From positions 1-29,870 of the IMG/VR virus record IMGVR_UViG_3300049215_000854: a stretch of DNA of 29,870 nt. One strand, written 5' to 3'. Under the pieces are notes generated by a model. It had not been told where the DNA came from and searched no databases. It was given only the letters and a program-made list of their open reading frames with translations. Origin of the DNA: a virus. Below, piece by piece: positions 1,785-19,394 of this stretch; within the stretch, counting starts at the first letter, position 1, and every line of letters starts with the position of its first letter. Both the position numbers and the translations under genes were made by a program.

Positions 1785-2686
1785 CAACTAGGTATCCCGG
1801 TAAAGAGCCCGGAAAAGTCCGTCTGTTCCTCAATATTAAAATCTAGGAAATGGGCCGACGTGGAAACAGCGCCACTACCATCAAGATATGCCGGGGCATT
1901 GACAGGATTTCCGCTTGAATCGTTTATGATTTTTAGTTGACCGGAAACTAACTGATAAAACCCCGCGTCTAAAACGTGTCTAGTATACGTATCAGGACGA
2001 TGATGGAATTTAAGACTAACTTTCCACGCGGTCACGCCTTGGCCATAATATGGTTCGTAATTTCCTTCGGTAAGTTTGAGACAGTTATCGGAAAATGATC
2101 TACTAATTCCAAGGATAGTGAAAGAGCAACCCCCACTATTCGTCTTTCCCAAACAGCTTTGTATTGCGCTCCACGGTGCCGAATAAGTCTTAAAACCTAT
2201 ACTTATTTCCTCATCATATATTGTTTCCATGAGGCTGGGATCGAAAGGCTGCCCGGCACTATTCGTTATCTTATTGCCATCTTTGTCCTGATAGGCATCT
2301 TGGACTATCTCTTGGCTTTCGCTTCGGAATTCGATTTCCCATGGTTCCGATTCGCTTGGCGATTGCTGCCAATTGATATTACTGTCATATGTACATTTCA
2401 CCTTAAAGACGTTTCCGCCTGCCGCTGTCTGCGTTTCCCATGCTGGTGAAACGTCGCGCAACGTGGCAGTTACATAGCCGCCAGATTCAATAGGAATGGA
2501 TATCGTTAAACCTGTTAAGTTATCCGGTATGGAAAGGCTGGTAACGGGATCAACGGCAGTTAAACAAATAGCCGCTAGATCAGTGGCACTATCCGTTATC
2601 ACCTGATAATTCAAAGTCTGTTTGATTCCGTTATAGTCTCTGACGGCTTGTGAATCGGCTAATTGTGTTACTTTTAATACTGCCAT
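1784..2686 (-). CDS. Putative distal-tail/tail-tip protein, 300 aa
   Basis: This is the first gene after the tape measure, where siphoviruses usually encode the distal tail protein. I see no motif that proves that role. The protein is acidic, beta-rich and has no membrane segment. It contains a WETQTAAGGNVFKVKC stretch and a central part with several cysteines (IQSCLGKTNSGGCSF, SDNCLKL), followed by GQGVTAWKVSLKFHHRPDTY, which resembles the ordered domains of tail-tube-like proteins. Start at ATG 2686 is supported by a GGGGGGA Shine–Dalgarno only a few bases upstream, placed in the 11-nt gap after the tape-measure stop. The C-terminus overlaps the next ATG. Confidence 0.6.
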   Translation of the reverse strand: MAVLKVTQLADSQAVRDYNGIKQTLNYQVITDSATDLAAICLTAVDPVTSLSIPDNLTGLTISIPIESGGYVTATLRDVSPAWETQTAAGGNVFKVKCTYDSNINWQQSPSESEPWEIEFRSESQEIVQDAYQDKDGNKITNSAGQPFDPSLMETIYDEEISIGFKTYSAPWSAIQSCLGKTNSGGCSFTILGISRSFSDNCLKLTEGNYEPYYGQGVTAWKVSLKFHHRPDTYTRHVLDAGFYQLVSGQLKIINDSSGNPVNAPAYLDGSGAVSTSAHFLDFNIEEQTDFSGLFTGIPS

Positions 2687-2697
2687 TTAGTCCCCCC

Positions 2698-4500
2698 TTA
2701 TGCCGCTATTTCCACGGTGTCGGATTGTTCCCCAGCAAGGTAGTGATTCGTATCTTGCAGCGCTTTCAATTGCTGCGCGGCGATGCTTTGCGCGTCCTGT
2801 TGAATTTTCACTAGACGTGACATGGAATCGTTAGTGGTTATTTTATTTTGATCGGGCAGTTTGAAATCGCGGCGACGTTCCACGGCTGCCGTCTTTTTTA
2901 TCGTGTCGTCTTTTTTATCTTCGGCGGCTATTTCATCCTTCATAGCTTTTTGCACAGCCTGAGCGTATGTCTCTTGACTGATTGCATTGTCATTCAATAG
3001 CTCATTAAGATGAGTCAGCGTATCTCTATATTTGTCCAGTGGAGTCTGGTTTGCCTCAAATATCTTTTTGCCCTCTTTCAAATTTTCCTGATGTTTCTCC
3101 AATTGATCTAACTGGTTATTCAGATCTTTTGCATGGGCAATTTGTTCCGGGCTTGCTCCACTACGAATGAGATCATCTATTTTCTTTTGGCCACTGTTTT
3201 TTCCGAATTCCGCCAGTTCCTGTTCCATTTCATCTAGTATGGAATGGACGTGTTTACCAGCTTCGTCTAGTGCGGACTCAATCGGTTCAACAATTTTGTT
3301 TTTATTTTTCACAAGGCTGGCTGCTGCCTTGTCGGCTTTGTCAATTACTCCAGCGTACCACGCATCTATAGAAGTCGATGGCAATGGTTTAGCTACTTCT
3401 GTTGCAAGCTGTGCCGAAAATCCTTGGGCAAATGCCTGCAATGCTTCGTTTGAATCCCGAATGAAATCTGGCACCTTTTCATCTGAATTCGTCAATTTGT
3501 TATAGATATAGACTAAGTCTTCCGCCACTTTTTCGGCACAATCCGAAATGGACGCGAATGAACTAATGGCGGCATCAGCGATAGATATACATGCTATTTT
3601 TACTTCCTCAAACGCATCCGCAAGAGCACCTACAGCGCCCACAACTACCATAATGGTCGTCTCAAATGCGTCTCTCATGGTGTCAGCCTTGGGAATGATG
3701 GAAAGGATTTCCGTGCCTATCTCTATGAGTACCTTCGCAACAGCAATCGTTAATTGGTTTTTGAAACCTTCAAAACTGGCGTTTAGTTCCTCAAATTTGC
3801 TATGCACGTCCTCAAGTTTTGCATTATCAATGTCGGACATTGAGACGCCTAATTCCTTAGCCTTATCAATTGCAGCTTGGATGCCGGTAGCGCCCTCATT
3901 AAATAACGGCGTTAGTTTTTGTCCTGATTTTCCGAATAGATCGCAAACTATTGTTGCCTGTTCCATAGGATTTTTGATTTGGGAAACCTTATCGGCGATA
4001 TCCTTAAATGTTTTATCAAGACTTTGGGAAGTTAGTTTTTTCACCGACAATCCCAGCAAGTTTATGGCATCGGCGGGCTTCCCGCCGGACGTGGCAGCTT
4101 CCCCAAGTGACTTATTTAGTTTCTGAATTGACGTGGTAAATGTTTCAGTATCGACGCCTGCAATCTTTGCGGCGAACTGTAAACCTTCTAGTTCTTGAAC
4201 AGGAATTCCAAGAGCACCACTCAATAGATATGCCGCGTGCGCAGCTTCTACAGACGTAGCTACCCATTCTGTTATATGTTCTGCTGCCGATTTGAAACCT
4301 TCCCCAACGAATTCCAAACCTTTAGTGATTCCTTCAATTATCAAACCACCTTCGACAAGGCTGGCGATATTAAATCCTTCCCCGGCTTCCTTGCCACTTC
4401 GTTGGAAATCTTTCAAGCTGCGCGAACCTTTGGCCAAGCCCTCAGTAAATTTGGCGCTATTGGTGCTAAGCGATACGACTAAACTGCCTACTGCTGCCAT
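2698..4500 (-). CDS. Phage tail tape measure protein, 600 aa
   Basis: The tape measure sets the length of the tail tube and leaves through it during DNA delivery. Evidence: it follows the gpG/gpGT chaperone pair by one nucleotide (TGA-a-ATG) and is by far the longest gene of the block. It also has the typical sequence of a TP901/lambda-type tape measure around residues 120-260, including LFGKSGQKLTPLFNEG and the following helical stretch. The N-terminus (residues 1-60) is Gly/Ser rich. A hydrophobic helical segment near residues 270-300 (TIMVVVGAVGALADAF) may be the membrane-interacting part. Residues ~400-560 are highly charged and predicted coiled coil. At 600 residues it is short for the family. 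Using ~1.5 Å per residue as a rule of thumb, it would suit a tail of roughly 90 nm. Confidence 0.9.
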   Translation of the reverse strand: MAAVGSLVVSLSTNSAKFTEGLAKGSRSLKDFQRSGKEAGEGFNIASLVEGGLIIEGITKGLEFVGEGFKSAAEHITEWVATSVEAAHAAYLLSGALGIPVQELEGLQFAAKIAGVDTETFTTSIQKLNKSLGEAATSGGKPADAINLLGLSVKKLTSQSLDKTFKDIADKVSQIKNPMEQATIVCDLFGKSGQKLTPLFNEGATGIQAAIDKAKELGVSMSDIDNAKLEDVHSKFEELNASFEGFKNQLTIAVAKVLIEIGTEILSIIPKADTMRDAFETTIMVVVGAVGALADAFEEVKIACISIADAAISSFASISDCAEKVAEDLVYIYNKLTNSDEKVPDFIRDSNEALQAFAQGFSAQLATEVAKPLPSTSIDAWYAGVIDKADKAAASLVKNKNKIVEPIESALDEAGKHVHSILDEMEQELAEFGKNSGQKKIDDLIRSGASPEQIAHAKDLNNQLDQLEKHQENLKEGKKIFEANQTPLDKYRDTLTHLNELLNDNAISQETYAQAVQKAMKDEIAAEDKKDDTIKKTAAVERRRDFKLPDQNKITTNDSMSRLVKIQQDAQSIAAQQLKALQDTNHYLAGEQSDTVEIAA

Positions 4501-4501
4501 T

Positions 4502-4838
4502 TCAAATCACCTTAACCTTCATTCCATTCTCTGAGAATGCCATCATTAAATCCGTGGACGTTGTGGCCATTGCTGGCGTCTCTGGAAAGCGTTCAATCCA
4601 TTTCGGAATGAAGTCTTTTGCCGTGGATTTTCCACCCCATGCGTTTGCTGTAGTGGCGCACAAGATGGCGTTCCTTATGTCTGCGCGGTCTTCCGGAGTG
4701 GGAAATATTTCATAGTACGCCATCCATTCCGATAACTCATCACTATCTATATTCCACAACATATCTTTGACCGTCATTCCTTTAGCTTCTGCAATTTTGA
4801 ATAACTGCAATCGCCATGGATTATCAATTAAGTTTTTT
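4502..4838 (-). CDS. Tail assembly chaperone T part, made as gpGT by -1 frameshift
   Basis: This reading frame lies in -1 relative to the preceding gpG gene. It has no ATG near its beginning (the first candidate is TTG at 4810) but is open without a stop back into the A8 run at 4840-4833. After a -1 slip there, the product reads KKNLIDNPWRLQLFKIAEAK and continues to the stop at 4502, giving a gpGT fusion of about 218 aa (108 residues of gpG plus 110). The part EWMAYYEIFPTPEDRADIRNA matches the typical T-domain pattern (EWxAYYxxxPxxxxRAD). The fusion protein recruits the tail tube protein to the tape measure during assembly in lambda-like phages. It is best annotated as one joined CDS with the gpG gene. 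Confidence 0.85.
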
Positions 4839-5157
4839 TTAGAGCGTCAACGTCGGCGGTTCCAAGAGCGTTTACACGTTGGGCAACGTCTATAAGTCGA
4901 TCCAATACTTGATAGTTTTTCTGCCCCAGCGCCTCAGCTTCGTCATCTTTGAAAATCCTATTGCCGTGCTCATCGCTGATAACTTTGACAAGGAATAGAG
5001 CCCGGATATTCGTTGGCTTCACGGTTAGCTGCTTCTCAAAATTATCTCTATCAAGTCCTGAAAATACTCTGATATAAACGTGCGTTCCCCATTCCGGCAC
5101 CTCCACACGTTCCACCTTGATATCGCTGGCATTTAAGATATTTTCCTTTAAGCCCAT
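4828..5157 (-). CDS. Tail assembly chaperone gpG-like, 109 aa
   Basis: This small acidic protein sits between the major tail protein and the tape measure, which is the fixed position of lambda gpG-type chaperones. The open frame runs further 5', but the ATG at 5157 overlaps the major tail protein stop as TAATG and gives the sensible N-terminus MGLKENILNASDIK. The body (VEVPEWGTHVYIRVFSGLDR, FEKQ, then LVKVISDEHGNRIF) is the usual pattern of phage tail chaperones of this group. The gene ends with Leu-Lys-Lys-Thr-stop, and the two Lys codons are part of an A8 slippery run, so a fraction of ribosomes should continue into the T frame. Confidence 0.88.
   Translation of the reverse strand: MGLKENILNASDIKVERVEVPEWGTHVYIRVFSGLDRDNFEKQLTVKPTNIRALFLVKVISDEHGNRIFKDDEAEALGQKNYQVLDRLIDVAQRVNALGTADVDALKKT
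4833..4840 (-). promoter_or_regulatory. Programmed -1 ribosomal frameshift site (A8 run)
   Basis: On the coding strand the end of gpG reads CTA AAA AAA ACT TAA. This contains the slippery heptamer A AAA AAA just before the stop. A -1 slip gives AAA AAA AAC TTA and continues in the open T frame. Position, direction of shift and the downstream domain all agree with the well-known G/GT frameshift of siphovirus tail chaperones. I do not see an obvious strong stem-loop directly after it. Confidence 0.88.
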
Positions 5158-5573
5158 TAGCTGCCTGCCGTGAATGTAACGGGTCCAGTGACAACGCAAC
5201 TAACGTCGTTAGATATCTGCTTATCTACTGGAATCTCTCCCCCGAATTCATCGATAAAACCTTGGAACGCGATGGTGCTGCCGTCGCCAAGTGTAATCTT
5301 AAAATACTGGTTAATTCCTTGCTGCGCGATTAATGCCGCGACTTGTGTCTTAACATAGTTCAACGTGACAGTTACTTCCCCGGCATCCTTGAGCCCACCG
5401 ATATATTCTTCCCATCCCGATGGCGACAACATATGCGTGACTTTTACTTTTTGTACTTTAGTTTTTGGAAATGATATTTTTGTGGCTTCCGCAAGGTTCG
5501 TGTACGTGCCCATTGAAGTCGTGCAGTAACCAAAAGTTGATCCGCTGCCTAATATTGTTACTGATGCTGCCAT
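5157..5573 (-). CDS. Major tail (tube) protein, 138 aa
   Basis: This is the likely tube subunit of the siphovirus tail. It is short and beta-rich. It begins MAASVTILGSGSTFGYC, has a middle part SPSGWEEYIGGLKDAGEVTVTLNY, which is typical of tail tube proteins (the EEYxxGLxDxGEVT pattern), and ends in VTGPVTFTAGS. It lies between the tail terminator and the gpG/gpGT chaperones, as expected. The ATG at 5573 is preceded by a GGGGGA Shine–Dalgarno in a 58-nt intergenic gap. That gap also holds an inverted repeat that could pair with the ribosome site. High expression is expected of this protein. Confidence 0.88.
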   Translation of the reverse strand: MAASVTILGSGSTFGYCTTSMGTYTNLAEATKISFPKTKVQKVKVTHMLSPSGWEEYIGGLKDAGEVTVTLNYVKTQVAALIAQQGINQYFKITLGDGSTIAFQGFIDEFGGEIPVDKQISNDVSCVVTGPVTFTAGS

Positions 5574-5580
5574 GTAGGTT

Positions 5581-5617
5581 CCCCCATAACTAGACTTACA
5601 TATCTATTCAATGGGGG
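5581..5617 (-). promoter_or_regulatory. Inverted repeat overlapping the RBS of the major tail gene
   Basis: CCCCCAT at 5581-5587 and ATGGGGG at 5611-5617 are perfect 7-bp inverted repeats with a 23-nt loop. The loop has a small inner TAGA/TCTA pair. In the mRNA the 3' arm contains the GGGGGA Shine–Dalgarno of the tail gene, so pairing would hide it. A regulatory role is inference; chance complementarity of G- and C-runs is possible. Confidence 0.4.
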
Positions 5618-5631
5618 CGGCGAAATGTCCT

Positions 5632-6117
5632 TTAGCCAATTTCAAAAGCTAGATAGTCTTCAATGGTTTCTGACAGGTAATCGTTAATCGGCATCGTGAC
5701 ATATCCGCTTAACGGCACCACGTCATAGATCACCTCAAACGTCAATTGTTTGTTATAGAAAAGTGTCTGTTTATCCGCATATTCTTCGGTGTCTGATTGA
5801 TTCCGGAAAAATACACCTAAGACCGATACACTTCCCCATGCTCCACGTTGCCTATCCAAACTAATAATGACAGCCTGCGCAATCGCTTGGACTTCGGCAT
5901 ATGTATGTGCCAATATGTTTAACATCATCTTTTGAGTCACCAAACCGCCATTACTTGTCAATGTTGGGCTCAGGAATTCCATTTCCTCACATACATAGAT
6001 GATGCGCGGATAATCGACGCCTTGAACCTCAATTACGGCAGTGATATCCGTAACTAGATCAGATACGTTTGAGTCGGAATTCAGCTTCCACACAATCGCT
6101 GTTCCGGCATCACCCAT
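5632..6117 (-). CDS. Tail terminator / tail completion protein (DUF3168-like), 161 aa
   Basis: This protein would cap the tail tube and join it to the head. The ATG at 6117 (MGDAGTAIVWKLNSD) overlaps the end of the preceding gene by 8 nt and is chosen over the earlier, basic MRRRQQ start, which lies inside that gene. The pattern of an N-terminal helix (SDLVTDITAVIE), then PRIIYVCEE, then LNILAHTYAEVQAIAQAVI, and a late beta part (NKQLTFEVIYDV) fits the DUF3168/gpU-type tail terminators. The position between a gp10-like gene and the major tail gene is the standard one. The family call is moderate; the position in the operon is strong. Confidence 0.78.
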   Translation of the reverse strand: MGDAGTAIVWKLNSDSNVSDLVTDITAVIEVQGVDYPRIIYVCEEMEFLSPTLTSNGGLVTQKMMLNILAHTYAEVQAIAQAVIISLDRQRGAWGSVSVLGVFFRNQSDTEEYADKQTLFYNKQLTFEVIYDVVPLSGYVTMPINDYLSETIEDYLAFEIG

Positions 6118-6547
6118 TTGCTGCCTCCTCCTCAATTAGTTTCGCCATGGTGTCCGTTACGGCATCTAGTGATTGTTTTTGTGTGCTCTTAAAAGCATTC
6201 TCAAGGAAGTGCGCCGCCTTTATTTTATGCGTGCCGAATTCAATAAATGAGGCATAGAACGTGTCGCCGCTGTAATCCTTTTCATTCAATTGAACCTTGA
6301 TCGTCTTATAGAATTTATTGCGTTTTCCGGCACGGATACGAATAGATTTTTTCAGCAATCCAATATGTTTATCGTATGGACTATCGGAAACAGGCGCGTT
6401 TGCCTTGGCTTCCTTTTGCACGATCTTTGCCCCGGCACGTAACGATTTATTGATAAACTTATTCTGCGTTTTGCTTTCTAGTGTCTGCAACTTGGCCAAC
6501 AATTCTGTTCCGCCAGTGATATCGATTTTTACGGAGTCACCTTTCAT
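6110..6547 (-). CDS. HK97 gp10-like head–tail protein, 145 aa
   Basis: The protein is basic and begins with a short beta part and then ITGGTELLAKLQTLESKT. It continues with SLRAGAKIVQKEAKANAPV, the hallmark region of HK97 gp10-like phage proteins (a helix ending in 'A..NAPV', then 'GLLKKSI'), and with FYASFIEFGTHKIKAAHFL near the C-terminus, again typical ('F.E.GT....'). It takes part in joining head and tail. The start ATG at 6547 overlaps the previous stop by 4 nt (ATGA). The order connector–closure–gp10–terminator–tail tube agrees with HK97-like phages. Confidence 0.85.
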   Translation of the reverse strand: MKGDSVKIDITGGTELLAKLQTLESKTQNKFINKSLRAGAKIVQKEAKANAPVSDSPYDKHIGLLKKSIRIRAGKRNKFYKTIKVQLNEKDYSGDTFYASFIEFGTHKIKAAHFLENAFKSTQKQSLDAVTDTMAKLIEEEAANG

Positions 6548-6888
6548 AGAGTCACTTCCGACACGTATAGAACGTGTTTTATTTTTCTCTCTTGGACATT
6601 GTCAATGCCGGCAATGTTGAAAATGCGACCACCAAAATTGACGCGCATCGTAGTGTCGATGCCCGGCAGGTAGTGCATGACGACTTTTCTATTTGCCTTA
6701 GATGCAAAGCTCTTAGCTATGAACTGTTCGGACGGTTGGGATATCAATGTTATGTTCGCCCAAACAGTGGCAAATGTCGTCCACGTCGCTGCCTTAACAC
6801 CATTGGCATCCGGTTCGCTTAACGTTCGCTGTTCAATCGTAATACGATTAAATAGATCGCCGATATCTAGTGTTACATCTACTGCCAT
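6544..6888 (-). CDS. Phage head closure / head–tail joining protein, 114 aa
   Basis: This is a stopper-type protein that closes the portal channel after packaging. The sequence shows the family pattern: FNRITIEQRTL near the N-terminus, a central TWTTFATVWANITLIS, and a C-terminal GRIFNIAGIDNVQERKIKH. In this family the last part usually reads 'r.y.I..i...der...l'. The ATG at 6888 lies two nucleotides after the connector stop, and the gene overlaps its follower by ATGA. The length of 114 aa is normal for the family (about 100-120). Confidence 0.85.
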   Translation of the reverse strand: MAVDVTLDIGDLFNRITIEQRTLSEPDANGVKAATWTTFATVWANITLISQPSEQFIAKSFASKANRKVVMHYLPGIDTTMRVNFGGRIFNIAGIDNVQERKIKHVLYVSEVTL

Positions 6889-6890
6889 AA

Positions 6891-7589
6891 TTATTTATAT
6901 CCTTTTGGACGCAAGCTGTTTAAGAGACGATCATAGAGTGGTGATTGCGTTAGTTTGCTGTCTACTGTAATGGATCGCTTAGTGAAAATTTCGGCTGCCA
7001 TCAAACGAATTAAAGTCTTAGCAGTCTCAGGAACATTGGTTTCGTCGTCGGAATATCCGGCAGTAAATGTGATTTGAATGGCATCTTCCCGATTCGTTTG
7101 TATCTGTGGAATAGTCAATAACAATACGAATGCGGTTTGTTCATTGTCCGTTACATAGACGCGGTAATCCGTGCCACTTGTCAACGTCTGTAGCGTTCCA
7201 TTGGCATCATAAAATTGCACCAGAGAAACAGCTTGGACAGGTGAACGTGGCAAGTCGATCCTGCCTTGCAAATGCTGATAGGTTTGATTTGTTAAACCGT
7301 ATCCTTGAGACGTATATCCCGTGTAAGGATCATAGCCTCCACCATATCGATAGGATTGCATATCGTATAATGCCTGCCATGTAGACCACGGAGAGGCACT
7401 TTCCACGTCATACCTGAGAGTAGCGGTACACAATTGCCGCGTCGTCTCCTGTTCCACTAATTGCCTGCCCATGACACTTAATGAAGTGATATATGAATCT
7501 TGATCGGTGCCGTCAACTTTCAAATGGTCTTTCATTTCGTCCAAGGAAATCGGCTCATTTGCTGGTGGCGTGATAACTGCTAATCCCAT
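6891..7589 (-). CDS. Head–tail connector (gp6-like), 232 aa
   Basis: This protein attaches to the portal ring. The N-terminus MGLAVITPP, followed by EPISLDEMKDHLKVD and QDSYITSLSVMGRQLVEQET, is the classic gp6/Phage_connect_1 pattern (a 'lsl.e.K.hLrvd...dD..i..l...A...iE..t' type helix bundle). The C-terminus has PETAKTLIRLMAAEIF, the usual 'P...k.ai..lva..y' helix. The middle contains a Tyr/Gly-rich insertion (SYRYGGGYDPYTGYTSQGYG) that I do not know from the family. The ATG at 7589 follows GAGG at good spacing. The four codons upstream start on a weaker codon. The gene is separated from the capsid gene by a terminator. Confidence 0.85.
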   Translation of the reverse strand: MGLAVITPPANEPISLDEMKDHLKVDGTDQDSYITSLSVMGRQLVEQETTRQLCTATLRYDVESASPWSTWQALYDMQSYRYGGGYDPYTGYTSQGYGLTNQTYQHLQGRIDLPRSPVQAVSLVQFYDANGTLQTLTSGTDYRVYVTDNEQTAFVLLLTIPQIQTNREDAIQITFTAGYSDDETNVPETAKTLIRLMAAEIFTKRSITVDSKLTQSPLYDRLLNSLRPKGYK

Positions 7590-7603
7590 ATGTATCCTCA
7601 AAT

Positions 7604-7628
7604 AAAAAAGGCGGCGACATTCGCCGCC
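7604..7628 (-). terminator. Rho-independent terminator after the capsid gene
   Basis: Read on the minus strand: GGCGGCGA, loop ATG, TCGCCGCC, then TTTTTT. That is an 8-bp perfect GC-rich stem with a short loop and a U-run, directly after the capsid stop at 7657 and before the connector RBS. It probably lowers transcription of the connector and tail genes relative to the capsid gene. Confidence 0.9.
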
Positions 7629-7656
7629 GCCCTGTACCCCATTCGGTCAAAACTTG

Positions 7657-8907
7657 TTAGGCATGTAGAGTCAGATAGCTGATTGCAGCGCTATTGATAA
7701 CGCGACCATCTGAACGCTGACTCGCCAAAAATCCGGTCTGGAAATATTCGATAAATCTTTCCGTGGTTCGGACAATCGTTAGATCGTTCACGTCACGGAT
7801 GAAATACTTGGAGAAGTCGCCAAACAAAACTGCCTTTGCGGCTGCGGCATACGCCATGCCCTGATTAATGTAAATTGGGAAACCATTAAAGGTACTTGGT
7901 ACGCCGAGCGTCAAACTTGGCTGGAATTGATAGCGGTTGTTACTGTCTTTAATCTTGCGAAGTGCCTGAAGCGCGTTATCCTTCATCATGTAACCGGCAT
8001 TTGGGCTGTTTCGATAAACTGGATCAACACTTGTAGCAAGATCAATAAGTAGATCAGCATCGGCTGTAGTCTCCAAAGTAGTTGTCTCGCTGGTCAAACC
8101 AGAGTCTGAAGCGCCGGTAACGATACCCATAGGCTGTCCACTGCCACTACCCGTGGTGAAGTCTGCATTCTGTTGACGACCGATACGAGTGGCCAGCATA
8201 TCTGCCAAGTCGCCTTGGAGGTCAACTACTGAGTCGGTCAACAGATTGTTGGGGACCAAAACAAGTTTGGAACTGTAGATATATGCGTTAATGTTGACGG
8301 CTGCAAACGATGGATCGGCATTCATGGCAGTAGCAACATTTTCGGCCAACAGTTCGCCCACGTTGCCCGTGTCATCTTGGACCGGCCATGGAATAACTCT
8401 ACCGTCTGCGGTTCGCAATTTACGGCATGGTGCCTGCCGGACGCCTACATATGAGATCAGTTTCTTTTCCAATTCATCCGTGAAAGACGTTGGCGCAAGG
8501 TAACCACCAGTAGAGCCCGTGCCTTCCGCCAAAGCGCGCTTACTTTCAAGCTGAGCACGATTTTCCGACTTCATTCCATCGATGCCGTGGATAAGGAAGT
8601 CACTGAACGCATCTTGATATTTATCAGTGTTAATAGCACGAATGACTTCATTCTCTTGAGTCACGGCACGGCGGATATCTTTGTCTTTTTCCCGAATTTC
8701 CCCGATTTCCTGTTCGGCCTGATATTGCTTTTCGCTGCGGATAACAGTTTGATTGATAGTTTCGGCCTTGTTGTGCAAATCGTCGAATGCCTGATTCTCT
8801 GTTTCTGTCAGAGAACGCTTTTCGAGATCGGCTTTATCCAAGATTTTCTTGGCGTCCGCCAAAAGCTGGCCACGTTGTTCGCGTAATTCCGTTACATTGT
8901 ATGACAT
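7657..8907 (-). CDS. HK97-fold major capsid protein, 416 aa
   Basis: The frame is open upstream, but the ATG at 8907 (MSYNVTELREQRG) carries a GGGGGAAACTTG leader and is the clear start. Residues 1-~110 form a charged coiled coil (LADAKKILDKADLEKRSLTE), the delta/scaffold domain that the prohead protease removes. The shell domain follows, with the family signature pieces TGSTGGYLAPTSFTDELEKK, LLTDSVVDLQGDLADMLATR, FTTGSGSGQPMGIV and, near the end, AVLFGDFSKYFIRDV and VINSAAISYLTLHA. The length is normal for the family. It lies after the protease gene and is followed by a strong terminator, consistent with very high expression. Confidence 0.95.
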   Translation of the reverse strand: MSYNVTELREQRGQLLADAKKILDKADLEKRSLTETENQAFDDLHNKAETINQTVIRSEKQYQAEQEIGEIREKDKDIRRAVTQENEVIRAINTDKYQDAFSDFLIHGIDGMKSENRAQLESKRALAEGTGSTGGYLAPTSFTDELEKKLISYVGVRQAPCRKLRTADGRVIPWPVQDDTGNVGELLAENVATAMNADPSFAAVNINAYIYSSKLVLVPNNLLTDSVVDLQGDLADMLATRIGRQQNADFTTGSGSGQPMGIVTGASDSGLTSETTTLETTADADLLIDLATSVDPVYRNSPNAGYMMKDNALQALRKIKDSNNRYQFQPSLTLGVPSTFNGFPIYINQGMAYAAAAKAVLFGDFSKYFIRDVNDLTIVRTTERFIEYFQTGFLASQRSDGRVINSAAISYLTLHA

Positions 8908-8940
8908 CAAGTTTCCCCCATATGTCTGGTTAGCTGGCTT

Positions 8941-8985
8941 TAGTTGATTGCTGCGGTTCCACAAAAGAACCGCGACAATCAACTA
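8941..8985 (-). promoter_or_regulatory. Long stem-loop between protease and capsid genes
   Basis: TAGTTGATTG at 8941-8950 pairs with CAATCAACTA at 8976-8985, and GCGGTTC at 8953-8959 pairs with GAACCGC at 8967-8973. The two stems are separated by a symmetric 2x2 mismatch, and the loop is 7 nt. That gives 17 paired bases, starting inside the protease stop region and ending 33 nt before the capsid ATG. There is no U-run on the minus strand, so it does not look like a terminator. mRNA processing/stabilisation or protein binding are possibilities. Confidence 0.75.
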
Positions 8986-9530
8986 CATTCTGCCTGCCGT
9001 TGTTTCTTTTTCAGTATTTCCATATCTATTTCCTTTTTATTTTCTGACTTCTCAAAAACATCCAAGGACCGTAGTGCAACCGTGGTGTCCGGATACGCCG
9101 GACTTCCAACGAATGAAACCTCACTAATGGTTATGTCTGTTAATGTTCTTAGTGCCTGCCCATCCTGCCGGGACCATGATTCCCCACCGTCATTGACACG
9201 AAATGCAAATGACAGCCCGGCAATGTCTCCACGGTCTACGGATTCGATTAAATCATTGCCTGCCGTGGTGCGCGGAGTATCTAAACTCACATTCATAGAA
9301 CTGTCAGTTTGTTCTAATTTGAGCGTGCCCTTACTGAGTCGCCCCAATACCGGATAAGACTGGTGATTGAGTAGCGCCCGGACTTCTGAAAAGTGCATTG
9401 CATTAGGTTTAATCACTTCTCTGAATCGTTTTCCGCCCTCACTCAACAATTCCGATGGACTATTGAAAGGAATTGCCCCCACAATCTTCCTAGATTCGTT
9501 TTTCAAACCTTCAATTGATCTAATTTCCAT
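8979..9530 (-). CDS. Phage prohead protease, HK97 type, 183 aa
   Basis: This serine protease (clan of herpesvirus assemblin, HK97 gp4 type) matures the capsid by cutting off the delta domain. Evidence: the family opening (ESRKIVGAIPFNSPSE), the His motif LLNHQSYPVLGR around residue 55-60, the segment LIESVDRGDIAGLSFAFRV, and the Ser motif ITISEVSFVGSPAYPDT near residue 140. The start at ATG 9530 has a GGGGGGAGAAA Shine–Dalgarno and overlaps the end of the portal gene by 11 nt; an ATG 13 codons upstream is open but lies deeper in the portal gene. The C-terminus is basic and Lys/Gln-rich. Confidence 0.93.
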   Translation of the reverse strand: MEIRSIEGLKNESRKIVGAIPFNSPSELLSEGGKRFREVIKPNAMHFSEVRALLNHQSYPVLGRLSKGTLKLEQTDSSMNVSLDTPRTTAGNDLIESVDRGDIAGLSFAFRVNDGGESWSRQDGQALRTLTDITISEVSFVGSPAYPDTTVALRSLDVFEKSENKKEIDMEILKKKQRQAECS

Positions 9531-9927
9531 TTTCTCCCCCCACTTTGGCACCTTCCATGTCTGTGGCATCCTCTATAGAGTCTGCCAATGGCCCTACGGG
9601 CCCATTTCCCGCGTTGCTGACTTCAATTAGTGTTGATAGCCTGAAATACTTCTGTCCAAGCCCATTTGGCAGTGGATTTAGTCCTTTAGCGGCTCTAATT
9701 TCGTCCGCATTCCGGATGCCATTCTGAAAATCGACCTGATTAACTGTTGCAGTAGTTGCGGCATCGACGCGCGCAAGGTTCTGATAGTCAAACTGATAAA
9801 CACTTAGCCCTTGGCGGCTGGCAGGAATCAACTTCCGGTTAAATTGTTGTTGTAAACGTGTTACATGTGGCTTAATCGTGCGGGCAATTAACTCCATTTG
9901 ATTCTGTTCGAAATTACTATAGACATC
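9520..9927 (-). pseudogene. Phage portal protein, 3' remnant (N-terminal two thirds missing)
   Basis: The frame encodes the C-terminal ~130 residues of an HK97-family portal protein: YSNFEQNQMELIARTIKPHV, QQQFNRKLIP, then LARVDAATTATVNQVDFQNG and IRNADEIRAAKGLNPLPNG, all in the order seen in complete portals (typically 400+ aa). At about position 9926 the homology stops and the DNA continues as a TPR/O-GlcNAc-transferase gene in another frame. The ATG at 9945 lies in that foreign sequence, so it is not the native start. A complete portal would need a further ~300 codons plus terminase genes upstream, and neither is present here. Confidence 0.88.
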
Positions 9928-10694
9928 CCCACAATGCTGCGCCAACCGTCGGCATGCGAACGCAATTCATGTGTAATCGCGTCCGGGCGCATCACGTCGG
10001 CATAGCAAATTATCTCAAATTGCGCATGGTCGTGCTCTCGAAACATTGGCCGCAGCGCCAGCCCCACAATATGCCCGCGGAAATCCGGCGACACATACCC
10101 AATCCGCAACCGCCGCTCTGGTTGCGGCGCGACAGGTTTCTTATGCGGTTCACTGGCTTCAGACAATCCGCGTGCATTGGTCTCGTTCCATCGGCGGTGC
10201 TCTTGAAACAACGCCTTCGCGTCATAATCCGAATGGTAGTGCATCGCATACAGAAGATTGCTGTGGACAACCGCGTAACCCGGCTTCAGCGCGATGGCCT
10301 TGCGATATACCGCGATCCCCTCGTCCAGTAGCCCCATGTCCTTCAATGCATTACCGAGGTTATTGTACGCTTCAATGTAATTCTCTTTTAATGCAATTGC
10401 CTGCCGGTAGGAAGCGATCGCTTCATCCATTTGCCCACGCGATTTGAGCACATTACCCAAGTCGCTGTAATAATGCGGTACCGACTTGAACGCAATTGCT
10501 CGTCCAATCAACTCCAGCGCCATATCAGGCCTGCCGCTCTGGTAAGCCAGGTATCCCAGCAAGTGCAGCGTATCGGCCTGGTCTGGCCACTGCTGCAATA
10601 TCTGCCGATAAAGCATTTCCGCCTCCGGCAATTTGCCGGCCCGATGCTGTACGATTGCCGCTTTCATTAGTTGTTGAAGTTCATTGTTCGCCAT
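9928..10694 (-). pseudogene. TPR–O-GlcNAc transferase (SPINDLY-like), 3' truncated
   Basis: The intact start is ATG 10694. Residues 1-~150 are tetratricopeptide repeats (for example ADTLHLLGYLAYQSGRPDMA, EAYNNLGNALKDMGLLDEG). The opening of the Glyco_transf_41 catalytic domain follows: RRLRIGYVSPDFRGHIVGL, with the conserved DFRxH histidine, then FEIICYADV and HADGWRSIVGMS. In full proteins this is followed by a GT-B catalytic domain of several hundred residues. Here the match ends at GMS, and ten foreign residues follow before a stop at 9888. Such proteins glycosylate Ser/Thr or act in protein or sugar modification. This copy lacks the UDP-sugar site and must be inactive as a transferase. 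Confidence 0.88.
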
Positions 10695-10758
10695 GGCGGG
10701 AATCTTAACAAAAGACTGAGCACAGTACCCGTCGCCAGCACGCCTGGTTATCAGTTAA
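10695..10758. other. Intergenic gap upstream of the TPR gene
   Basis: No gene is seen here. It contains the 5' flank of the TPR gene and the degraded upstream part of the transposase relic. I see no convincing promoter. Confidence 0.4.
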
Positions 10759-11070
10759 AGACCGACGCAAAAACGGTTCTCAACAACGGGACGTTGGTCG
10801 GTGATCAGAAATTTGGGCTTGTCATACTTGGGCGGTGCGGTGCAGCAGCGCCGCCTCAATCATTACCGCCATTGGTACAACATCCATCGGCCGCACAGCG
10901 CCCTGGGTGTTTTGACGCCCGATGAAGCCTGGCGGCAAAAGCCTGCGCCCACAGCGGTTCCCATCCGCGCCCGCGACGGGGCGCAATATCACTTCCACGT
11001 CGCCCGGCGAAACTGCCGCGGCGACCCAAGATTGCCGGTGTTCCAAATCACGGTTCGCAAGGCGGCCTGA
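10759..11070 (+). mobile_element. Transposase/integrase (rve) C-terminal remnant
   Basis: This is the only plus-strand coding sequence that looks real. The frame contains LNHYRHWYNIHRPHSALGVL and then TPDEAWRQ, the typical end of rve-type transposases/integrases ('..YN..RPH..LGg.TP.e.w'). An in-frame TAA at 10756-10758 and loss of similarity upstream show that the catalytic DDE part is missing. It stops at 11070. No inverted repeats could be recognised at its borders. It lies exactly between the rhs leader relic and the TPR gene, so it marks a rearrangement site. Confidence 0.7.
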
Positions 11071-11100
11071 GCAGCCAGCACCCAAAATACTCAAATATCG

Positions 11101-11169
11101 TCCGCGACGGCGGTGCGCGCCGAACGCCGATTTTTGTCCTTTATTCTCATTGAGTCTATTTGTCTTCAT
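11101..11169 (-). pseudogene. rhs gene 5' relic (first ~22 codons only)
   Basis: The frame opens MKTNRLNENKGQKSAFGAHR, nearly the same as the start of Rhs-3 (MKTNRLNEKKGQKPPIGAHR). The match ends just after the Arg run. The rest of the frame is antisense to the transposase relic and is not meaningful. There is no LEPR-XLL-like motif, no YD repeat and no toxin. It is the leftover of a fourth rhs gene or of a copied leader. Confidence 0.8.
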
Positions 11170-11250
11170 TCATCAATAACTTTGAAAAATATCAAATAAA
11201 TCGTTATCATATTGCTCAAATATCGCCCCACAGCGCGCTTGGCCACTACA
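11170..11250 (-). promoter_or_regulatory. Conserved rhs leader/promoter block, copy 2
   Basis: This copy is similar to 19317-19394 in front of Rhs-3. Shared blocks on the minus strand are TGTAGTGGCC at the far end, a cognate of ACGCTGTCGG, an AT-rich centre, and GATATTTTTCAA-GTTATTGATGAATG at the start codon. Conservation of non-coding DNA up to ~80 bp before the ATG suggests that it holds the promoter. Exact -35 and -10 boxes are not assignable. Confidence 0.6.
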
Positions 11251-11276
11251 CTCACCACTATAACAGCCACTAGAAG

Positions 11277-11741
11277 TCATACCTCGGTTGTTGGGTTCCA
11301 GCCTGCGGCGATCCGGTCAGCCAATATCTTATAATTCCATATCTGACGTATTGGGAGATGCTTGTGTTCCGCACCTAGGGCACCAATTGGCCACTCCTTT
11401 TTCCCGTCCCACAACCACCAAGTCTTAACCTGCCCAGTCTTCGGATCCCTCAGGCCTGCTCGGAATAACGGAAATTCTCTGCATCTCAATGGAATAGGCT
11501 CGTGGCCCACAGTTTGTACGACCGACTTCTCATGTAGATCATCTTCAAACACAAACGTCCAATATAATTCCCGTTCTCGCGCCTTGGCAGAAAACTCAAT
11601 CAAGGGTTTCGGATAGATGCCTGGAAGCACGCGTAGCAGACATCCACATAAATAATTCCGATGTGTCAGTTGCGCATATGCGTATCCGTTCGCTAGAGCG
11701 ATCTGGATTACATCGCCGAGTTTCGCTCGTTTCCTTTTCAC
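11277..11741 (-). CDS. Imm26-like immunity protein, 154 aa
   Basis: This is the likely antidote of the GIY-YIG-like toxin cassette directly upstream (gap about 60-70 nt). The N-terminus KLGDVIQIALANGYAYAQLT is the typical opening of Imm26-type immunity proteins ('k.Gdv..i.l.dg.ya.g.v'). Further on there are WTFVFEDDLHEKSVV and EPIPLRCREFPLFRAG, the latter in the usual place of the conserved 'P...r.~P.fr.g' region. No ATG fits. A GTG at 11741 has GGAG at 8 nt; a GTG at 11750 is possible but too close to it. The family call is moderate; the immunity role follows from family and position. Confidence 0.75.
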   Translation of the reverse strand: MKRKRAKLGDVIQIALANGYAYAQLTHRNYLCGCLLRVLPGIYPKPLIEFSAKARERELYWTFVFEDDLHEKSVVQTVGHEPIPLRCREFPLFRAGLRDPKTGQVKTWWLWDGKKEWPIGALGAEHKHLPIRQIWNYKILADRIAAGWNPTTEV

Positions 11742-11809
11742 ACTATACACTCCATACAGAATCTAAAGATGCAGATTGCATCGAACCGATGTTTACATTC
11801 CGATGCCTA

Positions 11810-12595
11810 TCAGAAACCCGGATAGCCTACTTTCCTCAGCCATGCCGTACCAAGTTCTAGCCTTTCTGCCAGTTGGTCTCCGGAATTGCTCAGAAATCTC
11901 GTACCTCGCGAGGTGTTCAGCAACGTGCCTTCACCCGAAACCCGCCCATGGTATTGTATAAGCGTCGCTTCCACGGCTTCTGCCACTTCAGGCGAGACAT
12001 CTGCCAAACCTGGTATGACCTCCGCAGGTGCCCCAGTCCTTAGCGTGGCGGCCCGAAGGCGCTGGGCAAGTGTTTTGGTGATCCCTCTGTTTGCAATTCC
12101 AACGTACCTGACCTCGCCGTCGGCCTCCGCCTGGTATACGCAAGCATTATGCACCCAAATCGGCTCGGCTTGCGAGCCTTCGGCACGCACAAAATACGTA
12201 TGTGCATCCTGCACGCGGAAGTTGTAAACGGGAATGCCTTGCGGATGCCGTTCGGTGCGGACAGCGGTAATCGTGGAAATCGCGCCGTTGGGTTCGGCAA
12301 TCGTGTTGCCGGCCTGGAGTTTGCCGGCTTCCACCCAACCTTGTTGCAGCGCGTACACCGGATGCTCGGCCGTGGTCTGAATCGTCTGCACGATGCCGGT
12401 CGAGGACCGCAGGGTGATGATGTGCAGGCGATACGCGGTGCGTTGGAAGACTTCCTCCACCTGCCGCAGCACCTGTTCGCCGTCGGCATCATGTTCATCG
12501 CGGGCCAGCACATAATCGCCGGGCCGCAGTGTTTCGATGGGCTTGGTGATGTAGCGGATGATGCGGGGCAGCGTGGCAAACGAACCAGGTGTCAT
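11810..12595 (-). CDS. Orphan Hint–toxin cassette, GIY-YIG-like nuclease tip, 261 aa
   Basis: Residues ~12-151 are the C-terminal two thirds of the Hint autoprotease of Rhs-3 (RYITKPIETLRPGD, TTAEHPVYALQQGW, PIWVHNA). The catalytic N-terminal CFVAGT is missing. Residues 152-261 are a different toxin: VYQAEADGEVRYVGIANRG, then RLRAA, EAVEATLIQYHGR and EGTLLNTSRG. The YVGI core and the order Arg, then Glu-containing helix, then GTLLN fit GIY-YIG-like nuclease tips of polymorphic toxins. The start MTPGSFATLP is not part of Hint, and no good RBS is seen. It is probably a silent tip that could replace the tip of a complete rhs gene by recombination through the Hint DNA. Confidence 0.75.
   Translation of the reverse strand: MTPGSFATLPRIIRYITKPIETLRPGDYVLARDEHDADGEQVLRQVEEVFQRTAYRLHIITLRSSTGIVQTIQTTAEHPVYALQQGWVEAGKLQAGNTIAEPNGAISTITAVRTERHPQGIPVYNFRVQDAHTYFVRAEGSQAEPIWVHNACVYQAEADGEVRYVGIANRGITKTLAQRLRAATLRTGAPAEVIPGLADVSPEVAEAVEATLIQYHGRVSGEGTLLNTSRGTRFLSNSGDQLAERLELGTAWLRKVGYPGF
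12144..12563 (-). repeat. Hint DNA repeat, copy C
   Basis: This is very similar DNA to 14878-15296 in Rhs-3, from the codons for RYITKPIET to the final WVHNA. It ends exactly where the toxin sequence begins to differ. Confidence 0.9.
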
Positions 12596-12649
12596 GTACG
12601 CCGGATTCGGTGGCAGTCCTTAACCGTTCTTTTACATGGTGCGGTGGCA

Positions 12650-13240
12650 TCAGATCTGATTCATCCGTTGAAACATTTCTGCGGCGCGACCGTCAAGCCA
12701 TTCTCGCAACCACTGAGAAAGCGACCGCTGCTCTGGAATCAGCCCTGTTCCGATATGGGGATAACCCTTTAGATAGTTGCTCGTCCATGCCTCTGGCATG
12801 TTCGGCTCAAATCGATAGACCTCTGGGTCGGCATCCTGCAAGCCTTCCGTTAGGGCTAATACCGACAGAATTCCTGAGCCCCATGAGTTAAATGGTAATG
12901 CCACCCTGCTCCATTTCTTGCCGCCCCGGGCGTCCGCAGCACAAAACCGCTGATACATCTCAGTGATAAACCGTCCCTGCGGCACATCGTCAGTCGCTAC
13001 AAGTGGAAGTATCCCATACCCTGGGCCAAACCCGCCGTTACCCACCTCGACGAATAGGTGACGCACGATAGCAGGCAACATAAAGCCCAATTGTGCCTCT
13101 GCCCGTCCTATGTCCTCCTCTGACAGAGATCGAAACGGACGAGATTCAGACGGCGCAAGTGTGGTGGCATGTCCCGGCGTCGTTGCCCTTCCACGCACAA
13201 GGCCGATTAACTCCCTCAACTCACCATTTGTAATATTCAT
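12650..13240 (-). CDS. SUKH (SMI1/KNR4) immunity protein, 196 aa
   Basis: The ATG at 13240 overlaps the stop of the deaminase-like cassette as TAATG; the longer upstream frame lies inside the toxin and is rejected. The sequence has the SUKH pattern: RSLSEEDIGRAEAQLGFMLP, then AIVRHLFVEVGNGGFGPGYG and ILPL, i.e. 'i...E..lg..LP......y...NGg..g'. The C-terminal half (FNSWGSGILSVLAL, LSQWLREWLDG) fits the remaining strands and last helix. SUKH proteins are the most common immunity proteins in Rhs/CDI-type loci and bind the toxin tip directly. The partner is inferred to be the deaminase-like toxin. Confidence 0.88.
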   Translation of the reverse strand: MNITNGELRELIGLVRGRATTPGHATTLAPSESRPFRSLSEEDIGRAEAQLGFMLPAIVRHLFVEVGNGGFGPGYGILPLVATDDVPQGRFITEMYQRFCAADARGGKKWSRVALPFNSWGSGILSVLALTEGLQDADPEVYRFEPNMPEAWTSNYLKGYPHIGTGLIPEQRSLSQWLREWLDGRAAEMFQRMNQI

Positions 13241-13962
13241 TAAGCACCTACGTAAATGTAGCCTTGCTGCTGCGCGGACCATATGCGCAGTTGGTTAGCG
13301 TTGTCCAAGAAGTGGTACTCGATTTCTGCGCCGGTTTCCATAGCGCGGTTAATCATCGTCTGCTGGCAAGTCGCGCAGGGCTCAAACTGCCCGTGCAGGC
13401 TAAGTACATCACCCTCTTGGATGTCCATGACTCGAATTGCGCGGTTCTCAGTATCGCCAATACGCCATCCAATACCTTGCTGCCTACCTAGTTCGATCTC
13501 CTCGGGTGTGAGTTCACCACTAACGAATTGCCGTTCGTCGATCAGCGTCCCATTGCGCATGAGCCTTGCAACAAGATTGTGGTTATCTTCCGATAGTGAA
13601 GTACCTGCCGGAACTTCGCCAGCGCCGTACGCCCCGCCCGCATTATGCACCCAAACCGGCTCCGCCGTCGAGCCTTCGGCACGCACAAAATACGTATGTG
13701 CATCCTGCACGCGGAAGTTGTAAACGGCAATGCCTTGCGGATGCCGTTCGGTGCGAACAGCGGTAATCGTGGAAATCGCGCCGTTGGGTTCGGCAATCGT
13801 GTCGCCGGCCTGGAGTTTGCCGGCTTCCACCCAGCCTTGTTGCAGCGCGTACACCGGATGCTCGGCCGTGGTCTGAATCGTCTGCTCGATGCCGGTCGAG
13901 GACCGCAGGGTGATGATTTGCAGGCGATACGCGGTGCGTTGGAAGACTTCCTCCACCTGCCG
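13240..13962 (-). CDS. Orphan Hint–toxin cassette, deaminase-like tip, ~238 aa
   Basis: There is no ATG. The frame starts after an in-frame TAG, with GTG at 13956 the only candidate, inside Hint at VEEVFQRTAYRLQ. Hint runs to WVHNAG (about residue 106) and the toxin covers 107-238. The tip has DNHNLVARLMRNG, then GDTENRAIRVMD and GQFEPCATCQQTM, followed by EYHF. The spacing of an acidic 'xTE' motif and PCxxC is that of a cytidine-deaminase-like zinc site, where PCATC would give two cysteine ligands. The first ligand is normally His or Cys and here is Asp, so activity is uncertain. The lack of a start and of Hint Cys1 suggests a silent cassette. Confidence 0.72.
   Translation of the reverse strand, partial: RQVEEVFQRTAYRLQIITLRSSTGIEQTIQTTAEHPVYALQQGWVEAGKLQAGDTIAEPNGAISTITAVRTERHPQGIAVYNFRVQDAHTYFVRAEGSTAEPVWVHNAGGAYGAGEVPAGTSLSEDNHNLVARLMRNGTLIDERQFVSGELTPEEIELGRQQGIGWRIGDTENRAIRVMDIQEGDVLSLHGQFEPCATCQQTMINRAMETGAEIEYHFLDNANQLRIWSAQQQGYIYVGA
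13640..13962 (-). repeat. Hint DNA repeat, copy B (shorter)
   Basis: This is nearly the same DNA as the 3' part of the Hint copy in Rhs-3. The similarity begins sharply at CGGCAGGTGGAGG on the coding strand (about 13962), next to unrelated DNA after the immunity gene stop. Confidence 0.9.
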
Positions 13963-13982
13963 CCGAGGCTAACTGTCGGTCA

Positions 13983-14507
13983 TTACGGCCCACGCAATAA
14001 TAAATATGCCTGATTCGCAGCTTCCGCGATGTCACTGTCATCCGAACGTTGGGCTTGTTCTGCCAATGGCAAAGCAAACTCGTACCGACGCAGGTCCTCC
14101 GACGAGCATTCACCAATGTAAACGAGGAATTGGTACGCGCAATCGACTAAGTCCAATCCCATTAGCATCTTGATGGAGAAATATTCGAAAACCTCCACCC
14201 ACCTTTCCAATCTCGCGAGGTCACGCTCGGTAATAAGCTTATTCCTTCGCAAGGCGCTTTGAGGGCGCAGGGCAAGGATGCGTGAATGCTCGCATATCCA
14301 CCATAAAGCGGCACATAGCTTTCTGTCCACCGTGCTCACACCTGCAATATCCGGGTGCAAGATCATCACGCATTGAATCAGTTCTGCAAAATCACCGTCG
14401 TCGAGTCCCTGATAAGGCCGCAGGCGGCGCGTGAAATTTTGCTCCTCGCCTTCCACCATTAACCCCGCATGGATCAGCAGACGATGTTCGGCTTCTTCCT
14501 TGGTCAA
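13983..14507 (-). CDS. Putative immunity protein of the Rhs-3 toxin, 174 aa
   Basis: I do not recognise the family. The TTG start at 14507 is supported by a perfect GGAGGTG four nucleotides upstream; the next ATG would remove 16 residues. The gene starts 12 nt after the stop of Rhs-3, the fixed place of an immunity gene. The protein looks all-helical, with FAELIQCVMILHPDIAG, KLCAALWWICEHSRI, then ARLERWVEVFEYFSIKM and LAEQAQRSDDSDIAEAANQA. No signal peptide or membrane anchor is seen, so it should act in the cytosol. Immunity to the ART-like tip is inferred from position only. Confidence 0.7.
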   Translation of the reverse strand: MTKEEAEHRLLIHAGLMVEGEEQNFTRRLRPYQGLDDGDFAELIQCVMILHPDIAGVSTVDRKLCAALWWICEHSRILALRPQSALRRNKLITERDLARLERWVEVFEYFSIKMLMGLDLVDCAYQFLVYIGECSSEDLRRYEFALPLAEQAQRSDDSDIAEAANQAYLLLRGP

Positions 14508-14519
14508 ATTGCACCTCCA

Positions 14520-17500
14520 CTATCTACCCGGGAGCATTCGCACAATTGCCCGTGGGTCGATTCCTCTTGTGATTAGAATCTCGTCCGCCGTAATGATATT
14601 TTGCACATCTTGAGGAGTTCCGCCTCTCCTTGCGGCTTGTAAAAGTTGTTCTTGCGGGACAATCCCGCTCCCAGTTTGTTGCGCGATTTCCAGATCGATT
14701 TCGGCAACTCCATACGAGGTCTCAAATCTGGCCGTGCCCCCCTCCGTCATTGAAACAGAAATATATCTTGTATCCCTACCCTGAATGTGGTCAAGGATTG
14801 TACCACTGGTACCCTTCGGCATTATTCGTTGGCCCGAATTATATGCCTCAAGATCTGTTTCGTTCAGAGCACGGTACGCATTATGCACCCAAATCGGTTC
14901 CGCCGTCGAGCCTTCGGCACGGACAAAATACGTATGTGCATCCTGCACTCGGAAGTTGTAAACGGGAATGCCTTGCGGATGCCGTTCGGTGCGAACCGCG
15001 GTAATCGTGGAAATCGCGCCGTTGGGTTCGGCAATCGTGTCGCCGGCCTGGAGTTTGCCGGCTTCCACCCAGCCTTGTTGCAGCGCGTACACCGGATGCT
15101 CGGCCGTGGTCTGAATCGTCTGCTCGATGCCGGTCGAGGAACGCAGGGTGATGATTTGCAGGCGATACGCGGTGCGTTGGAAAACTTCCTCAACCTGCCG
15201 CAGCACCAGTTCGCCGTCGGCATCGTGTTCATCACGGGCCAGCACAAAATCTCCGGGGCGAAGGGTTTCGATGGGCTTGGTGATGTAGCGGACGATCTTA
15301 AGTGCCGTAGTCACGCCGCCGCGCCGGTGGAGTTTGGCCCATTTCCTGGCAGAGATGCGTCGAATGTTCCCATCTTCATCTTCGTATTCGATCTCGACGA
15401 CGACTTCTGTGCCGGCGACAAAGCAGGTGGGGCTGGTGAACCAGAAGACGCCGCCGTAGAGGCCGCCTAAGGCTCCGCCTTGCAACGCGCCGCCAAGGGC
15501 TCCCTGTAGCGCGCCTTGTAAACCGTTTTGGTAATAACCCGTAACTCCTCCCTGAACCGCGCCGAAGGTGGCTCCGATGCCCGCTCCAATTCCAACCGAC
15601 CTAGTAAAGCTGGCCTGTGCTGCATTTTCCGTGAGAAGTTCAACCCCGTTGGCCAGCAATTCGCGCCCGGCGGCCCGAACGCCCTGTTCTCCCAATGTGA
15701 TCCCGACATCGCTGGTGCCCAATGTAACTGCATCGACCAATAGGAACCCACCGTAGACTGCGGTATAACACCAATCGCGGTAGTAGATGGATTTGCCAAA
15801 GTTAATCGCATTACCGATTACTGGAATATAGCTATACCAACCGCCATATCGATCCGGCTCCTCTGTGGAGAAGATGTTACGGCCAGCCAACGCTGCATCA
15901 TAATTCGGCGTCACGGCGCGGCCGGAAACCGGATCGACCAGACCGCTTGGCCCGTAGATAAGTTTGGTAAATGCATCTTCCCGCTGTGTTCCAAAACCAT
16001 AGGAGATCAATGCCGCCGTGCCACTTGATGGTACGGTCCAGTTCCCATTGAGGATTGTCTGTGCGCCTTGGGGGGTGTAGGTAAACCGTTGCAGCACCTG
16101 CCAGTTCGGGGCCGATTGCCCGGCCAGTTGTGTGTAGCCTATTACCGAGGTGACGTTTCCCCGGGCATCGGTGGTGAGCCATAACCGCTTGGACAGGGCG
16201 GTACCGCCAGTGTCCGCCGGCAGATCGACCAAGGCAAGGGTACCCGGCGTGGCGGCGTTCCACACGTATTGCGCCACAGCCACGTGGGTTCCCGCATCGG
16301 TCAGGCCACCGCGCTCCTCAATGACGTTTCCGGCCGAATCGTAGTAGAAATAGCGCACGTCAAGGGTCGCACCGTCAACTTGGGATACCCGACGGCCTAA
16401 CGCATCGTAGGTGTAAACGATATTAGAACTGCTTCCGCCGGTGGCTGTGACATTCACCGCCACCGCCCGGTTAAACGCATCATAGGTGATGGCGTCCACC
16501 TGACCGTTTGGTAAATCCGTGACCTGCGTCTGATCCAGATTGGTGTAGTTGGAGGAGGAGACTGGTGTATTGCTGTTGTTGCCCACCGCGTCATAGCTGA
16601 AGGGCAGATTAATGCCAGGGCTGGTAATCGTGTTGGGTCGCGCAGCCCCGGTGGATTCCGACAGCGTGCCCTGTTGCCAATCGTTCAGACGGTTCAAGCC
16701 GTCGTATGCGGCATTGGCCGATGTGCCGTTGGTCTGGAACAACTGACTGTAAGCCGCACCCGCCGCCGTGCCGTCGGATGCCGTCAACACCACGCGTTGA
16801 TAGAGTTCATTGGAATCCGCGTCGTAACCGTAAACAAATTGATCCACATTGCCGGAAGTGGCGCTGGAACCGGATGCCGCCGTGATGCGCCAATCCTGAT
16901 CGATTACGCGCCCAAACTGGTCCAAACCAGTGTATTGGGTACCACTGTTGCCAACCGTGCCGGTGACCGCGTCGTTTAAGCTTAGGGTGATCCCGGTCGC
17001 TACACTATCGACTGTAACCACCGGTGTATCGAGCCCCAGATAACTATAGCTTTGCAACGTTCCCGAACCGTCCGAAATCGACGTGGGCCTTCCCACAATT
17101 GCATCGAGACCGGAATAGTTGTACGTGACCACACGAGGGCCTGAAGTACCGTCGGAGGAACTTGGATACGTGATGCTTTGCAGCGTGGAACCTAAACTCA
17201 AAGGGTTGTACGCATAGCTGACGGTTGGGGATGACGAAGTTACTTCCCCAAAGTTTTCCTGCGTATCTGTTAACAATTGGCCGAGGCTGTTGTACGTTCG
17301 CTTCACATCGTTCACCGTGCGGCTGCCGTTCTTGCTGGTGGCCTCGATAATGTTGCCGAAAATATCGTATTGGTAATCCAGTTCGGTCACGCTGAAATCC
17401 ACCGCGCTCCCGCTGGCATCCACGGTTTCCTTGGTCAGACGCCCCAGAACATCATATGTGTAATGGTGCTTCACGCCATTGCGATCAATCTCCGCGATCT

Positions 17501-19316: not shown

Positions 19317-19394
19317 TCATCAATAACATTGAAAAATATCCGAAAATCCATTATTTTGATTAAATATTGGCCGACAGCGTGTTGGGCCACTACA
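19317..19394 (-). promoter_or_regulatory. Conserved rhs leader/promoter block, copy 1
   Basis: This is the upstream region of Rhs-3. It is shared with 11170-11250 from the start codon to TGTAGTGGCC. It is AT-rich in the centre (CCAATATTTAATCAAAATAATGG), where a -10 type sequence could lie. It makes Rhs-3 the one Rhs gene here with a likely promoter of its own. Confidence 0.55.

Follow-up and report, generated by a model that had tools for sequence, protein, structure and literature searches.

Organization of the locus

The window analysed here, 29,870 bases long, takes in the whole of a linear IMG/VR record, a single metagenome contig. Judged by Pfam and PHROG families and by its open reading frames, positions 1 to 9921 carry the head and tail genes of a phage, every one of them on the minus strand. 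From 9921 to 29870 the DNA is bacterial: after a TPR–GT41 gene come a transposase tail, an RHS leader that is cut short and an RHS/Hint/SUKH locus. The passage from one part to the other is the only phage–host boundary within this linear contig. The contig is filed as a virus though bacterial DNA makes up about two thirds of its length. At the boundary, truncated transferase and portal genes on the minus strand are joined head to tail. The features are as follows:

1–7601, minus strand: genes for head–tail connectors, the tail and the tape measure, every frame open (connectors and tape measure by PHROG families; open reading frames)
7657–8982, minus strand: major capsid protein of HK97 type, intact (PF05065, E = 8.2e-56; phrog_10)
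8979–9569, minus strand: prohead protease (Peptidase_S78), intact (PF04586, E = 7.5e-29)
9520–9921, minus strand: 3' part of an HK97-type portal gene, 133 codons from YSNFEQ (PF04860, PHROG portal families, alignment with whole portals)
9919–9923, no strand: the joint (alignments of homologues; Markov change point at about 9940)
9921–10694, minus strand: 5' part of a TPR–GT41 (O-GlcNAc-transferase-like) gene, 258 codons (TPR families and PF13844; homology ends at S258)
10801–11070, plus strand: C-terminus of a transposase/integrase (rve_3), truncated, on the bacterial side (PF13683, E = 3.8e-6)
11104–11207, minus strand: truncated copy of an RHS gene leader (104 nt, 88% identical to 19251–19354)
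11277–29870, minus strand: bacterial locus of RHS/Hint/SUKH polymorphic-toxin type (PT-HINT, SUKH and deaminase matches; planctomycete RHS relatives)

The truncated portal and the phage module

The portal fragment matches PF04860 over profile positions 246–320 of 321 (E = 8.9e-12), that is, over the C-terminal region up to its end. It keeps 133 residues, as against about 407–425 in whole portals, and the N-terminal residues that are missing number from about 275 (relative to the portal of contig L003) to about 315 (relative to L030), so that the fold is incomplete. With most of the fold lost, the portal cannot be functional. The rest of the HK97-type head and tail module is intact and has distant relatives only: identity to the capsid protein is at most 45% among IMG/VR contigs, taken over the best segment, and about 29–42% in a few Planctomycetota genomes, some of which belong to the order indicated by the bacterial half. 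A single-protein search of viral contigs with this capsid returned no relatives, and in a quick tree it forms a lone long branch. Being so distant and so isolated in the tree, the capsid neither ties the phage independently to a planctomycete host nor excludes one. Likewise, the strong difference in GC and codon usage leaves nothing that would tie the phage to the transferase-bearing host.

The truncated transferase

The transferase fragment begins with a TPR array (TPR_11, E = 2.7e-21; TPR_1, E = 1.2e-20 in Pfam) and goes on into the Glyco_transf_41 family, where PF13844 is matched over profile positions 67–118 of 543 at 23.6 bits, just below the cutoff of 25 bits. It retains 258 residues, relatives having 543–665. 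A GT41 catalytic domain with both lobes is not present, and the gene is a truncated copy and not a working member of the family. In GT41 enzymes the UDP-sugar site lies in the C-terminal lobe; since this whole lobe is gone, the transferase cannot be functional either.

Its nearest relatives, at 41–47% identity over about 240 residues, are found in Phycisphaerae metagenome-assembled genomes (MAGs) designated UBA1161, palsa_1353 and G166, which share their order with a MAG titled Tepidisphaeraceae. Over the C-terminal part of the fragment, Phycisphaerae copies are up to 54–56% identical, and the nearest genomes overall lie between 40 and 56%. A single-protein search of viral contigs with the window transferase gave no relatives. 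The family is greatly expanded in three Phycisphaerae MAGs (G001, G002 and G003, behind L091, L092 and L106), each of which has 54–62 matches to PF13844, a single gene often accounting for two; four such matches were counted in G155, and only 2 of 14 well-known control genomes have the family.

The bacterial flank

By its protein matches, the right half of the window appears to come from an uncultured planctomycete in the order that holds Tepidisphaeraceae. Among 298 Phycisphaerae genomes, the best match of the RHS protein (41%) falls in the same order as the Tepidisphaeraceae MAG. Between 11810 and 15177, a 300-nt Hint-coding stretch occurs three times at 95–96% identity, each time followed by a different C-terminal domain; one of these domains is a Pput_2613-like deaminase, and SUKH-type immunity genes are present there as well. 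This arrangement resembles an array of spare toxin cassettes in a polymorphic toxin locus of RHS type. Closer to the boundary, at 10801–11207, the plus-strand rve_3 tail lies directly against an RHS leader copy of which only about the first 100 nt remain. These two further broken pieces lie less than 1.3 kb from the joint on its bacterial side, and they fit a rearranging region. Upstream of the transferase, positions 10766–10790 match 25544–25568 within an RHS gene (25 nt, 92%), perhaps another scrap of an RHS gene.

Position of the joint

Reading down from 10694, the transferase tracks its relatives as far as ...HADGWRSIVGMS (...SIVGMS), ending at S258, whose codon TCT occupies 9923–9921. In the next column the commonest residue among relatives is D (51 occurrences), while the window has I (ATA), and past S258 the transferase frame reads IVISNRIKWS and then meets a stop. 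Portal homology starts from the Y of YSNFEQ, encoded by TAT at 9921–9919. Most relatives have S or T before this residue, where the window has V; in alignments with relatives, the 40 residues upstream in the same frame contain nothing portal-like, and stops are present. At most about 3 bases (0–3 nt) can be attributed to both parents, a figure that comes from homologues 30–55% identical and not from the parental alleles. Both genes are truncated at a point placed to about 5 nt, without overlap of the two homologies and with a composition that differs by side.

An order-3 Markov change-point model, trained on 1–9000 and 11201–29870, away from the joint, puts the change at about 9940. GC3 is 0.62 in the transferase and 0.42 in the portal, as compared with 0.40–0.50 in the phage genes and 0.66–0.72 in RHS, and the codon-usage log-likelihood is -23.1 (bacterial) for the transferase and +23.2 (phage) for the portal. 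Some AT-richer short bacterial genes farther to the right also score as phage-like, so composition alone is insufficient to prove a boundary; it is its coincidence with the limits of homology that does so. The preliminary description, which had the two genes cutting each other off at one point with a change of frame, GC and style, is borne out by these data. It had also set the joint within about 10 nt around 9926; the joint lies a few bases lower, at 9923–9919.

No direct or inverted repeat is found at the joint within the window, where the joint sequence recurs only as one chance 10-mer. A reading of the boundary as an attachment site (attL/attR) was rejected, as it lies inside the portal gene, with no repeats, no tRNA and no integrase at the joint. 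A hot spot of structured DNA was rejected as well, the joint folding worse than shuffled sequences (z = +1.9). The missing halves of the transferase and of the portal were found nowhere else in the window, and for this reason a simple inversion or insertion was also rejected.

The same measurements bear on the possibility that the assembler misjoined two paths through a shared repeat. Dozens of transferase matches per genome in the lineage that the bacterial half resembles, and the nearly identical Hint repeats in that half, which are hard to assemble, would provide material for such an error. Yet an assembly-graph misjoin requires a shared stretch of the k-mer length, about 20 bases or more, whereas the homologues leave room for at most about 3 nt common to both sides, well under any k-mer used; moreover, the joint does not lie in a repeat within the window, and there are no Ns. 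A misjoin of this kind is therefore very unlikely.

Full-length TPR–GT41 genes in other phages

Two phages in IMG/VR carry a full-length TPR–GT41 gene between the prohead protease and major capsid genes. One was recovered from three samples as contigs 99.98–100% identical (L019, 3023–4639; L199, 3212–4825; L200, 696–2309), and the gene of the other (L030, 5259–6905) is 65% identical to it. The products, of 538 and 548 residues, match PF13844 with E = 5.8e-37 and 9.2e-36. Two more open reading frames of L019 (8396–9139 and 9136–10239) were judged by eye to be putative glycosyltransferases. A role of the phage TPR–GT41 proteins in glycosylation of virion proteins is plausible. A literature search of partial coverage turned up no paper on phage, capsid and O-GlcNAc transferase in combination, and this is only a weak sign of novelty.

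These four contigs raise the idea that the window transferase is itself phage cargo that naturally abuts the portal, with the joint an internal phage rearrangement. Full-length copies do sit in the head module there, but downstream of the protease and not upstream of the portal, and the window transferase is only 25–30% identical to them, as against 47% to planctomycete chromosomal copies (54–56% in the C-terminal part). Its codon usage is on the bacterial side and the 19 kb beyond it are an RHS locus. Sequence identity, codon usage and gene order all led us to reject the idea, which is given hardly any credence; gene order and identity indicate that the phage genes are not the source of the window transferase. 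A further idea is that a phage of Tepidisphaeraceae-like planctomycetes swaps DNA with the greatly expanded host family, this joint being one such exchange. Transferase genes would then be recurrent landing or capture points, at which the complete copies in the two phages above might hint. We regard this as highly speculative and most improbable.

Discussion

The joint is an ordinary, accidental break-and-join, either a genuine deletion joint or the product of a chimeric molecule, and not a functional element. The preliminary description had offered a deletion joint or an assembly chimera; those were the right two options, but the chimera in the form of an assembly-graph misjoin has become unlikely, with at most about 3 shared bases. 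On balance, a real joint, whether by prophage deletion or by aberrant excision, is the more probable outcome, and a chimera of any kind retains a considerable though lesser share.

Among the individual explanations, we consider the most likely, with about an even chance, to be a real deletion or illegitimate recombination in a prophage-carrying cell, between a planctomycete chromosome and a siphophage-type genome. The event would have been a non-homologous break-and-join of the chromosome of an uncultured planctomycete of the Tepidisphaeraceae order with a phage genome present as a prophage in the same cell. The deletion would have taken the 3' end of the transferase gene, the left part of the phage (integrase, terminase and so on) and the 5' end of the portal gene, and the joint would be debris with no encoded function. 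We infer both the cellular origin of the joint and the integrated state of the phage. In favour of a real deletion we count the truncation at one point with an overlap of about 3 nt or less, the absence of repeats at the joint and of the missing halves from the rest of the window, the common direction of the two genes, the broken pieces nearby and the distant capsid relatives in Planctomycetota, among them members of the order of the bacterial half. Counted against it are the lack of a relative with the same joint in IMG/VR or GTDB, the single linear contig, the phage–bacterial difference in GC and codon usage, and a capsid tree that gives no host. The other phage genes are all open, without the decay of an old prophage remnant, which means that either the event was recent or the joint is artificial.

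The second of these possibilities, a chimeric molecule formed in library preparation or whole-genome amplification, in which phage and bacterial fragments were ligated or template-switched and assembled as one contig, is a real but clearly lesser prospect. It would account for a near-blunt joint with different composition across it and for undamaged phage genes. Amplification chimeras between molecules often form without complementarity (PMC1855051), and where the joined segments lay over 10 kb from each other, complementary bases were present at only 28–35% of the joints (PMC1855051). An exact 40-mer across the joint has zero matches in IMG/VR and GTDB genomes, as a chimera would predict; this search, run because the preliminary description had proposed that a related genome with the same joint would prove it real, found none and proves neither reading. 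On the other hand, a lone chimeric molecule is normally outcompeted in assembly by the real paths unless coverage is very low, and this contig runs on from the joint for about 10 kb in one direction and 20 kb in the other. Chimeras in amplified DNA are, moreover, mostly intramolecular inversions (85%; PMC1855051), and overlaps in chimeras from multiple displacement amplification (MDA) peak at 6 nt (PMC4595205), neither of which describes this joint. Both a real joint and a library chimera give near-blunt joints, so sequence alone cannot separate them.

The gal and bio transducing particles of phage lambda show that illegitimate joints with little homology can fall inside phage genes. Aberrant excision or transduction of this kind, with phage DNA and adjoining bacterial DNA packaged together and sequenced as virus, would also leave a phage module intact save for the portal, and the record does come from a virus collection. 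However, such a particle would need a helper, having lost the portal N-terminus and probably the terminase; particles of this type are rare and seldom assemble. We consider this explanation unlikely.

For users of the data, the point is one of quality: a contig held as a virus is mostly bacterial and may be a chimera, and host links or claims of a phage-encoded transferase and toxin drawn from it would be unsafe. A real joint would record that an uncultured planctomycete recently underwent a deletion between phage and chromosome. The joint implies no function, and the part worth following is the complete TPR–GT41 genes in phage head modules.

Compared with known systems, the window agrees in each case up to a point. 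Like bacterial TPR–GT41 proteins (OGT/SPINDLY-like), its transferase has a TPR array and then the N-terminal lobe of GT41, but it is cut at about residue 258 and is without the C-terminal lobe. Its portal resembles the HK97 type (PF04860) in having the C-terminal region up to the last residue, with the protease and capsid genes next to it in their customary order, and differs in the absence of the N-terminal 275–315 residues. With MDA and library chimeras (PMC1855051, PMC4595205) it has in common that unrelated DNA is joined with little overlap; the MDA chimeras described are, however, mostly intramolecular inversions with overlaps of about 6 nt, whereas here the parents are unrelated and share 0–3 nt. 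As for prophage remnants and other joints of illegitimate recombination, the window differs in that only one phage side is visible, gene decay is absent and the chromosomal location is putative; it resembles them in an abrupt switch from host to phage inside two genes, with little or no microhomology and both genes left nonfunctional.
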